Shown piece by piece: positions 15,102-17,426 of a DNA stretch of 64,000 nucleotides. The stretch lies in assembly GCF_027531705.1 (NCBI RefSeq), contig NZ_JAPZSP010000004.1, positions 62,001 through 126,000 of the forward strand. Reading direction: 5' to 3'. The stretch comes from Flavobacterium sp. GTDB lineage: Bacteria; Bacteroidota; Bacteroidia; Flavobacteriales; Flavobacteriaceae. How positions within the stretch are numbered: the stretch's first letter is position 1; each line of letters opens with the position of its first letter. A model generated the notes under the pieces. It was not told where the DNA came from. It ran no database searches and saw nothing but the letters and a program-made list of their open reading frames with translations. A program made the translations under genes and the position numbers.

Positions 15102-16116
15102 GCCAAACATATTACTGATTTATACTGGTGGAACCATTGGTATGATGAAAGATTTTGAAACAGGTGCTTTGAAAGCTTTCAATTTTAAAAAATTACTCCA
15201 AAAAATCCCTGAAATAAAGCAATTAGACTGTACTATCGAAACCATTTCGTTTGAAAAGCCTATTGATTCATCAAATATGAATCCCGAAAAATGGGTAAAT
15301 ATGGCTTCTATAATTGAAGAAAATTATACAAAATATGACGGTTTTATAGTTTTGCATGGTTCAGATACAATGTCTTATTCGGCATCAGCATTGAGCTTTA
15401 TGCTTGAAAATTTATCGAAACCCGTGGTTTTTACTGGTTCACAATTACCTATTGGCGACTTGAGAACTGATGCCAAAGAAAACTTAATCACTGCTATCCA
15501 AATTGCATCTTTACAACAAAAAGGAAAACCTGTAATTCAAGAAGTCTGCCTTTATTTTGAATACAAATTATACCGTGGCAATCGAACAACCAAGATAAAT
15601 GCAGAACATTTCAATGCCTTCACTTCTCCAAATTATACCGAATTGGCTGAATCTGGAGTTCATTTAAAAGTGAATTCAACTTTATTATTACCAAAATCTT
15701 CCAAAAAATTTGTAGTTCACAAGAAATTAGATGATAATGTGATGGTAATCAAAATGTTTCCTGGTATAAATGAGAATATTTTAAATTCGATTAGTGCCAC
15801 ACCCAATTTGAAAGGAATTGTTTTAGAAACCTATGGTTCGGGCAATGCGCCAACAGAAGATTGGTTTATTCAAATTCTAAAAAAAGCTATTAAAAATGGT
15901 TTACACATTATAAATGTAACGCAATGTTCTGGCGGAAGCGTAAATATGGGTCAATATGAAACTAGTACACAACTCAAAAAGATTGGTGTAATTTCTGGAA
16001 AAGACATTACTACCGAAGCTGCTATTACTAAATTGATGTACTTATTAGGTCAAAATGTGGCTTCTAACGTTTTCAAAACCATTTTTGAAACTTCTTTGCG
16101 TGGAGAAATGAATTAA
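15091..16116 (+). CDS. ansA: type I L-asparaginase
   Basis: A 341-residue asparaginase that hydrolyses L-asparagine to aspartate and ammonia. The first catalytic Thr lies in YTGGTIGMM (residues about 11-19), and the second block is LHGSDTMSYSASALSF. The family signature is complete. There is no signal peptide, so it is cytosolic. It is coupled to the acyltransferase gene by overlap and ends just before the tRNA-Ser gene. Confidence 0.93.
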   Translation: MHTKPNILLIYTGGTIGMMKDFETGALKAFNFKKLLQKIPEIKQLDCTIETISFEKPIDSSNMNPEKWVNMASIIEENYTKYDGFIVLHGSDTMSYSASALSFMLENLSKPVVFTGSQLPIGDLRTDAKENLITAIQIASLQQKGKPVIQEVCLYFEYKLYRGNRTTKINAEHFNAFTSPNYTELAESGVHLKVNSTLLLPKSSKKFVVHKKLDDNVMVIKMFPGINENILNSISATPNLKGIVLETYGSGNAPTEDWFIQILKKAIKNGLHIINVTQCSGGSVNMGQYETSTQLKKIGVISGKDITTEAAITKLMYLLGQNVASNVFKTIFETSLRGEMN

Positions 16117-16162
16117 AGATTGTATTATTCCTAATTTTTACGGTTATTTGCACCACAATTTT

Positions 16163-16252
16163 AGAGAGGTGTCCGAGTGGTTGAAGGAGCAAGCCTGGAA
16201 AGTTTGTATATGGGTAACTGTATCGTGGGTTCGAATCCCATCCTCTCTGCCA
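16163..16252 (+). tRNA. tRNA-Ser (anticodon GGA), CCA encoded
   Basis: The acceptor stem AGAGAGG (16163-16169) pairs with CCTCTCT (16242-16248), with discriminator G and encoded CCA at 16250-16252. The anticodon loop CTGGAAA gives GGA at 16197-16199. The long variable arm is class II, as in serine tRNAs. The T arm is GTGGG-TTCGAAT-CCCAT. Ten T residues follow the CCA directly. Confidence 0.95.
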
Positions 16253-16610
16253 GTTTTTTTTTTATTTTTAGAAAAAATTAATTAAAGATATTGTTCGAAT
16301 CCCTATACTATTCTTCTGCTAATTTTATTTTTTAAATTTTTAGAAAAAATTAATTAAAGTATTGTTCGAATCCCTTTACTATTCTTCTGCTATTTTTATT
16401 TTTTAAATTTTTAGAAAAAATTAATTAAAGTATTGTTCGAATCCCTTTACTATTCTTCTGCTATTTTTATTTTTTAAATTTTTAGAAAAAATTAATTAAA
16501 GATCTTGTTCGAATCCCTATACTATTCTTCTGCTAATTTTATTTTTTAAATTTTTAGAAAAAATTAATTAAAGATATTTTTCGAATCCCAATATTCTTTT
16601 TTGCTAATAC
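16253..16610 (+). repeat. tandem array of tRNA-Ser 3'-end copies (5 units, about 71-72 bp)
   Basis: The T-loop word GTTCGAATCCC of the tRNA (16229) recurs at 16293, 16364, 16435 and 16507, and as TTTCGAATCCC at 16579, so the spacing is 64, then 71, 71, 72 and 72 nt. In most units a CTTCTGCTA tail follows in the place of the tRNA CTCTCTGCCA end, and then a shared A/T-rich spacer with AGAAAAAATTAATTAAAG. The units are therefore degenerate copies of the tRNA tail plus its downstream flank. The T-stem pairing is mostly lost in the copies. The gap holds no gene. Confidence 0.9.
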
Positions 16611-16675
16611 TAGCATTGAAAACCAATCGTAAGATCTTCAATTGAAGCTATTTTTTCTAAACACATTAAAATCAT

Positions 16676-16704
16676 AAGACAACTAAATAGGTTGCCTTTT
16701 TTTT
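16676..16704 (+). terminator. possible terminator at the end of the tRNA-tail array
   Basis: AAGACAAC and GTTGCCTT form a 7-pair stem with one mismatch around a 7-nt loop, followed by eight T residues (16697-16704). If used, it would end a transcript that runs from the tRNA through the whole array. Confidence 0.45.
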
Positions 16705-16730
16705 GTATTTTTATTGCAGAAAATTCTATT

Positions 16731-17426
16731 ATGCGATTACTTATCAAATTACTTTTTTGTTTTTCTGTTTTTACTACTTTTTCTCAAGAAATTGAAACTG
16801 AAAAATCGCTTACCAAAGTTGATTCTCTTTACCGTGAAGATCAATTTTATGGTAGCATGTCATTTAGCATGATGCAAACCAAACCGCAAAATTATTCAGT
16901 AACCAAGCTATCGGCTGGCTTTTCAGCTGGATTTCTTAGAGATATGCCTATAAATAAGTCGAGAACTATTGCAATTGCGGCTGGATTAGGCGCTTCTTAT
17001 AACAAATTTGTCCATAATTTGGTTGTCACCAAACCAGCTTCTGAAATAGTTTATTCTGTGATAAGCCCTTCAGACTATGATAAAAATAAGCTTGAACTTG
17101 CAACTTTAGATGTTCCAATTGAATTAAGATGGCGAAATTCTACACCTGAAAGTCATCGTTTTTTTAGAATTTATAGTGGTGTAAAGATGAGTTATGTCGC
17201 TTTTAGCAAATCAAGACTTATTGTAGATGGAGAAACTTTTAAAATTAGGAACAACCCTGATATTACTAATTTTAGAACTTCTGTTTATTTAGCTATTGGA
17301 TACAACACATGGAATTTTTATGGCTCTTATGGCTTAACTCCAATTTTTAAATCAAATGCTAAAGTAGATTCTCAGGAAATTGGGTTGAATAATGTAAATC
17401 TAGGTTTGATGTTTTACATCTTATAA
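16731..17426 (+). CDS. outer-membrane beta-barrel-like protein
   Basis: The ATG at 16731 (MRLLIKLLFCFSVF) starts a clean signal peptide; an upstream in-frame start at 16692 would put a poor leader before it. The 231-residue product has alternating strands (KLSAGFSAGFLRDMP, TIAIAAGLGASYNKF, VYLAIGYNTWNFYGSY) and ends in an aromatic/hydrophobic strand (LGLMFYIL), as in PorT-like or OmpA-like barrels. The function is unknown. It overlaps the convergent PAP2-like gene by 6 nt. Confidence 0.75.
   Translation: MRLLIKLLFCFSVFTTFSQEIETEKSLTKVDSLYREDQFYGSMSFSMMQTKPQNYSVTKLSAGFSAGFLRDMPINKSRTIAIAAGLGASYNKFVHNLVVTKPASEIVYSVISPSDYDKNKLELATLDVPIELRWRNSTPESHRFFRIYSGVKMSYVAFSKSRLIVDGETFKIRNNPDITNFRTSVYLAIGYNTWNFYGSYGLTPIFKSNAKVDSQEIGLNNVNLGLMFYIL

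Follow-up and report, generated by a model that had tools for sequence, protein, structure and literature searches.

Tandem copies of tRNA gene ends associated with a 25-bp directional palindrome in Flavobacterium

Background

In Escherichia coli the tyrT gene is followed by tandem repeats (rtT) that carry the 3' end of the tRNA. We know of no clear origin for these tandem tRNA-tail repeats, and Rfam contains an rtT family. REP/BIME sequences are palindromic repeats associated with RAYT transposases. The rtT RNA of Salmonella is reported to be a 175-bp VNTR whose unit number differs between two strains (PMC2658671), and displaced tDNA fragments are reported to mark the ends of known islands (PMC4383910).

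The window analysed here is a 64-kb stretch of a Flavobacterium genome of 3.15 Mb, and it contains a tRNA-Ser(GGA) gene followed by tandem copies of the gene's own end. As in the rtT locus of E. coli, which an earlier note on this DNA had named as a parallel, and in that of Salmonella, tandem units carrying the 3' end of the tRNA follow the tRNA gene. The parallel holds for this arrangement, but no rtT match was obtained when positions 15900-17000 were scanned with Rfam to an E-value of 5. Unlike rtT, the Flavobacterium units measure mostly 65-115 bp, hold a directional palindrome (M), occur at several tRNA genes, involve 5' as well as 3' gene ends and are found genus-wide. At islands and prophages integrated into tDNA (attL/attR) a displaced fragment extends from a fixed point in the tRNA to its end, as it does here; unlike att scars, no element was seen between the copies, and the arrays reach 15 counted units and also involve the 5' ends of tRNA and ribBA genes. 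REP/BIME sequences are, as M is, short palindromic intergenic repeats near gene ends, but they are dispersed in many copies, whereas M lies at two places in the 3.15 Mb of its own genome. From sequence comparison, the arrays appear to work like a recombination scar array and are at most candidate members of the rtT, att-scar or REP families. No arrays of this kind in Flavobacterium were found in the literature, as covered by titles and abstracts with most subscription journals outside the coverage, and neither RAYT in Flavobacterium nor tandem repeats at Flavobacterium tRNA-Cys yielded any literature. Palindrome M, the occurrence of the same architecture at other tRNA genes and its spread through the genus are new relative to the earlier note.

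Results and discussion

The array downstream of tRNA-Ser(GGA)

The tRNA-Ser(GGA) gene was located by ARAGORN at 16163-16252 on the forward strand (Rfam tRNA score 53.8 bits). It is the source of the copied tail and is followed by five tandem copies of its own 3' tail, as had been claimed from the sequence. The T-loop word GTTCGAATCCC is at 16229 within the tRNA and recurs at 16293, 16364, 16435 and 16507; in the fifth tail copy, at 16579, it reads TTTCGAATCCC, with the first base changed. The spacings of 64, 71, 71, 72 and 72 given in the earlier note agree with these positions. The sequence TTCGAATCCC occurs six times on the two strands of the 64-kb window, always within the tRNA-Ser gene and its array, and a repeat finder returned one family of five members with spacings of 71, 71, 72 and 72. 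The tail word CTTCTGCTA is kept in four copies, and the fifth has TTTTTTGCTA. By word search on the forward strand, the first copy runs from the T-loop core to CTTCTGCTA at 16293-16321, copies 2 to 4 occupy 16364-16392, 16435-16463 and 16507-16535, and the decayed fifth copy (TTTCGAATCCC...TTTTTTGCTA) lies at 16579-16606.

The shared A/T-rich spacer described in the earlier note is present and contains M, a directional palindrome of 25 bp (AATTTTT-NNN-AAAAATTA-NNTAAAG) located between the tail copies. The pattern scan of the source genome placed M on the forward strand at 16263-16287, with one mismatch to the consensus, and at 16335-16359, 16406-16430, 16477-16501 and 16549-16573. The tail copy begins 4-6 nt past M. 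The window's list of open reading frames has none of at least 80 aa inside the array, in agreement with the claim that no gene lies there.

A terminator-like hairpin with eight T residues had also been reported at the end of the array. It is present, although weak, at about 16680-16704 of the forward strand. Positions 16690-16714 are identical to a stretch in an array-free genome of the same genus (G002), where this stretch begins 35 nt past the tRNA-Ser match, versus 437 nt past the tRNA in the window. Because the array-free genome has the identical stretch 35 nt past tRNA-Ser, the site at 16680-16704 is probably the original terminator of tRNA-Ser, with the array sitting between the tRNA and its terminator. 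An assembly artefact is an unlikely source of the array because the architecture recurs in many independent assemblies; records titled complete genome or chromosome that have it include AP025183, CP096136 and CP051546, among others.

Distribution of M

A scan of the 3.15-Mb source genome that required AGA in the loop and tolerated at most three mismatches gave six M matches, five at the Ser array and one 5' of tRNA-Leu(TAA); the backward control gave two. A free loop with two mismatches yielded 11 matches versus 3 for the backward control, but with a free loop and up to two mismatches the pattern is too noisy to count, since it hits 90 of 101 genomes and often scores equally well when reversed. 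Of the 299 genomes sampled from the genus, 101 had exact M and 198 lacked it, versus 2 of 299 for the backward control (read from the table). An order-wide sample had exact M in 14 of 296 genomes, comprising 13 of 25 of the same genus and 1 of 271 others. This single out-of-genus match, in a 0.3-Mb genome and apparently inside a coding stretch, is probably due to chance.

The combination of M with the T-loop word was also sought in one genome from each of 84,980 species, which returned 108 stretches. Eighty of these were classified by title: 75 are from Flavobacterium or Flavobacteriaceae, two from uncultured Bacteroidetes, one from [Flexibacter], and the remaining two from MAGs labelled Rhizobium and Bifidobacterium. 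A partial test for a tandem pair of the Cys tail word found none in 249 genomes of the family, using a pattern tuned to the Flavobacterium tail with two mismatches, which had any match in only 77 of the 249. The tRNA-Cys flanks printed from 20 loci of family genomes showed no tail array; one family locus (L388) has a second whole tRNA-Cys.

Genes that carry M and copied ends

Exact M was found in 298 distinct contexts. It lies beside a tRNA in 287, and in all 287 it reads away from the tRNA, which is tRNA-Cys(GCA) in 260 cases, tRNA-Ser(GGA) in 15, tRNA-Leu in 11 and tRNA-Ala(GGC) in one, the share of tRNA-Cys being also shaped by the way the loci were found. M is 3' of tRNA-Cys, -Ser and -Ala and 5' of tRNA-Leu (CAA in nine, TAA in two). 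Three Leu matches that point towards the tRNA come from these palindromes in reverse reading, because the pattern used there also accepted A as the last base. All tRNA-side contexts are within 2.7 kb of the tRNA, most of them in arrays starting beside it, and in most loci among those listed the first M is 11-45 nt from the tRNA. Nine further contexts have no tRNA in the stretch and a T-loop word after M; two of these, both in one locus (L302), match the array of G292, for which a longer flank (L109) shows tRNA-Cys. The last two contexts are the one probable chance match and one site at a ribBA gene. In a second tRNA-Ala case (L225) M has one base changed.

At tRNA-Leu and ribBA it is the 5' end of the gene that has been copied, and the copies start other than with GTTC. 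M is followed by a copy of the first 12 nt of the tRNA at tRNA-Leu(TAA) of the source genome, and at ribBA (L235, a gene with the Pfam domains DHBP_synthase and GTP_cyclohydro2) it lies between two copies of about 92 bp from the gene's 5' side. Because the direction of M follows the copied end and not transcription, a DNA-level process is favoured, and a role as transcribed RNA appears less likely. This also bears on the earlier proposal of a transcribed tail array yielding small RNAs, which has become less likely: a DNA-level cause would fit the direction of M better, Rfam gave no rtT match, and the two Ser-type units that were folded are no more stable than shuffled sequences.

Most of these loci had been fetched for holding M. 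Results are given separately for 30 loci that were retrieved only because they contain the tRNA-Cys gene (those with the highest scores among 60 matches). In 22 of them an M-like stretch (up to three substitutions) lay no more than 75 nt from the tRNA, versus 1 of 30 for the backward control, and exact M was within 700 nt in 16. A tail copy was present in 18 loci and missing from 12. All 48 T-loop words found within 700 nt downstream were preceded by an M-like stretch, sought in the 42 nt before each word; a few of these stretches are decayed (L153 and L171, judged by eye). Since each T-loop word has an M-like stretch before it, M and the tail copy go together.

The junction between M and the copied end

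In 187 motif-anchored Cys units (8 units without a tail were dropped), identity to the own tRNA was 0.11 at the second base before G53, 0.48 at G52 and 0.80 at G53, and 0.91-0.94 over the three bases after G53. A linker column with T at 0.72 also matches the tRNA, as expected for an A/T-rich linker in a gapped alignment. The linker, counted from TAAAG to GTTCGAATC, was 4, 5 or 6 nt long in 114 of 115 distinct units and 9 nt in the other, lengths of 0-20 nt being allowed.

These junctions have to be weighed against the main rival explanation, hairpin-driven slippage, in which M as an A/T hairpin stalls replication, the polymerase slips into the gene end and unequal exchange amplifies the product with no dedicated enzyme. 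The structure of the units is exactly what slippage would leave, since gene end, spacer and M are duplicated together in tandem. Several arrays that were scored as tail-ended continue into spacer and a partial M, and the units in G001 are near-perfect. Against this, copies begin repeatedly at the T-loop G, in the tRNAs for Cys, Ser and Ala alike, and at 11/12 in two kinds of tRNA-Leu, the linker keeps its narrow length range, and M-like arms are kept also in loci that were not chosen by M. Slippage without an enzyme is judged unlikely, although it is the strongest of the alternatives.

Conservation of the unit

G/C identity to the tRNA was 0.94 in the T-loop core versus 0.68 in the acceptor part (74 loci; bootstrap difference over loci 0.20-0.32). 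The corresponding values were 0.92 versus 0.71 in 33 one-unit loci and 0.95 versus 0.68 in 19 usable tRNA-chosen loci. The last unit of an array is less conserved (0.86 versus 0.57). A larger set gave 0.95 versus 0.65 (18 of 306 units and three tRNAs of length 74 dropped); it includes pattern-found loci, as do the last-unit values and the 28-mer set described below. These loci were retrieved with a pattern that required M and the T-loop word with 2-6 nt of linker between them. Pattern-found loci were left out of the 115-unit linker and 74-locus conservation counts, from which 15 of 190 units were dropped. The conclusions stand without the pattern-found loci and on the 30 tRNA-chosen loci, with slightly smaller contrasts. 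As the T-loop identity exceeds the acceptor identity, what is conserved is not the whole tail but M together with the T-loop core, a composite some 42 bp long.

The palindrome itself was examined in 171 distinct 28-mers, which have 1238 Watson-Crick cells versus 1213.6 (sd 3.3) after shuffling, a value reached in none of 2000 shuffles. This covariation is thin evidence: most pairs are invariant, the loci are mostly M-chosen and related sequences can exceed shuffles. The near-invariance of M in the 28-mer set carries the same selection bias, from which the 48 stretches of the tRNA-chosen loci are free. Viral loci (L239-L266) were excluded from the context, junction-conservation, linker, covariation, unit-number, array-end and diagnostic-position counts, except that in the diagnostic-position count L239 was kept and L240-L266 were excluded.

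Loci with a single unit still show conservation of M and the T-loop core. Amplification alone does not account for the persistence of the core there, which is the observation that fits a purely selfish reading least easily and could mean a cellular function. A cellular role of the composite is the next rival after slippage. The composite would then be a protein-binding or transcribed element kept by selection, with copies that must match the tRNA. The printed Cys units often keep a hairpin-plus-T terminator, one folded Cys unit is more stable than its shuffles (z -3.6), and the Ser array, lying ahead of what is probably the original terminator, may be transcribed together with the tRNA. We nevertheless consider such a role improbable, in view of several observations: no unit is present in 17 of the 134 Cys loci examined, many of which had been chosen for M, no tail copy in 12 of the 30 tRNA-chosen loci and no exact M in 198 of 299 genomes; two folded Ser-type units fail to beat their shuffles (z +1.5 and +1.4); no Rfam family except tRNA reached the gathering score in the sequences scanned; and the direction of M is reversed relative to transcription at Leu and ribBA. 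Structured RNA as a general feature was rejected on the foldings of two Ser units, one Cys unit and one Leu-array stretch.

Array size and turnover

Loci with a deviant tRNA-Cys provided ten tail copies with 17 diagnostic positions, of which 15 agree with the local tRNA and none with the commonest tRNA. It follows that the tail copies are made from, or kept level with, the local tRNA. The number of units per Cys locus ranged from 0 to 15 in 134 loci, a set rich in M-chosen loci: 17 had none, 33 one, 38 two and 46 three or more. Array ends were scored in 135 Cys loci after dropping 26 with short flanks. Twenty-two arrays end in M without a recognised tail, ten loci were scored as having M only, several of them (such as L108, L059 and L116) owing to altered tails, and seven have nothing. 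Because relatedness links the units of a locus, and likewise the loci of the genus, these counts are not numbers of independent events.

The unit length is mostly 65-115 bp, and about 168 bp in one species. In the Cys array of G314 the unit terminators switch between two sequence types. The composite units of about 168 bp, in F. cellulosilyticum (L290), carry a stretch like GAAGAGATACAGAAAAATGATGAATTTAAAGAATTG. In F. fryxellicola (L296) and in L108 and L063, some units have an insert in the T-stem copy that is near the perfect palindrome TCCCGAAGCTTCGGGA; judging from these near-palindromic inserts, other small repeats seem to land inside the arrays.

Relation to mobile elements

If each unit were the displaced tRNA fragment of an integrated phage or island reduced to its end, the copies would begin inside the gene, as they do, and displaced tDNA fragments of this kind are reported to mark known island ends (PMC4383910). 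The earlier note had offered remains of repeated integration as its other explanation, and the sharp start at G52/G53 and the displaced-fragment geometry agree with it, but neither an integrase nor cargo was seen in the interval from tRNA to tails. More generally, integrase plus cargo was not found between gene and fragment, the two large gaps opened holding transposase genes. Such an origin would also require that at several genes almost nothing but the same 25-bp M had survived. Exact scans of viral contigs gave no match to TTTTTAGAAAAAATTANNTAAAG and none to the end of M joined with the T-loop word, while a looser form of the palindrome matched 28 stretches. BLAST with a Cys unit returned three phage records with short, weak matches. 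With the window array, 177 plasmid and 107 phage records were returned, and the best 10 of each lie nearly all over the tRNA part; the single phage match that covers the array region (E 0.5) lacks M and contains just one T-loop-like word. We regard it as very improbable that the units derive from integrated phages or islands.

The searches made did not link M to any recombinase, integrase gene or element with cargo. Three candidates were set aside. Gene-bearing cassettes were rejected, as the array gaps of about 1.5 kb (G314) and 1.85 kb (G292) hold transposase genes (rve core; DDE_Tnp_1). A phage or plasmid origin was rejected, there being no M/T-loop site among the viral, phage and plasmid matches listed. 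A requirement for REP/RAYT was also rejected, as M is not dispersed and does not track Y1 transposases: exact M occurs in 32 of 87 genomes positive for PF01797 versus 8 of 20 listed negatives, some genomes being incomplete, and in 5 of 14 further, unlisted negatives identified by elimination (hand count).

A possible mechanism

Site-specific recombination at these loci is likely. The more specific reading to which we tentatively lean is that an array consists of M and the neighbouring gene end and arises by such recombination between a point past M and a fixed point in the gene. The right break falls just past M. The left break is gene-specific: it recurs at the T-loop G (G53) of the tRNAs for Cys, Ser and Ala, and two kinds of tRNA-Leu have it near position 11/12. 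A recombinase or nickase may act at M, each event tandemly duplicating the stretch from the T-loop to M, and the arrays could then grow, shrink and homogenise by further exchange. Neither an excised circle nor polymorphism between strains was observed. It is possible, though more doubtful, that M represents a gene-free minimal recombination element of a new class, a directional palindrome of about 25 bp that captures the adjoining gene end, duplicates it in tandem and prefers tRNA genes, and that an enzyme in trans has spread it and keeps it active across the genus.

With one directional site, a recurrent junction, 5'-end cases and a protein-gene case, the genus-wide family offers natural replicates of the process, and M gives a defined sequence for testing. 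Should the site prove active, few DNA elements that rewrite the surroundings of tRNA genes would be as small, and unit number might serve as a strain marker.

Other repeats near tRNA genes

At tRNA-Cys of the source genome (L164), what appears to be a decayed M is split by a short REP-like insert, and there is no tail copy. In the same genome tRNA-Leu(TAG), tRNA-Leu(GAG) and tRNA-Arg(ACG) (L205, L182 and L207) have short tail copies about 80-170 nt downstream. These stand behind a different, less A/T-rich lead ending in GAAGTWA, and similar copies occur at tRNA-Ser in L016 and L029; they are possibly a second family of the same kind. A related stretch follows the tRNA-Ser(GGA) hairpin in several species (L009, L011, L016, L029). 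In L029, where it is best kept, it has a GACAAAC...GTTTGTC-like inverted repeat and TCAGGCATAAAATGCC; it looks like an unnamed intergenic element.
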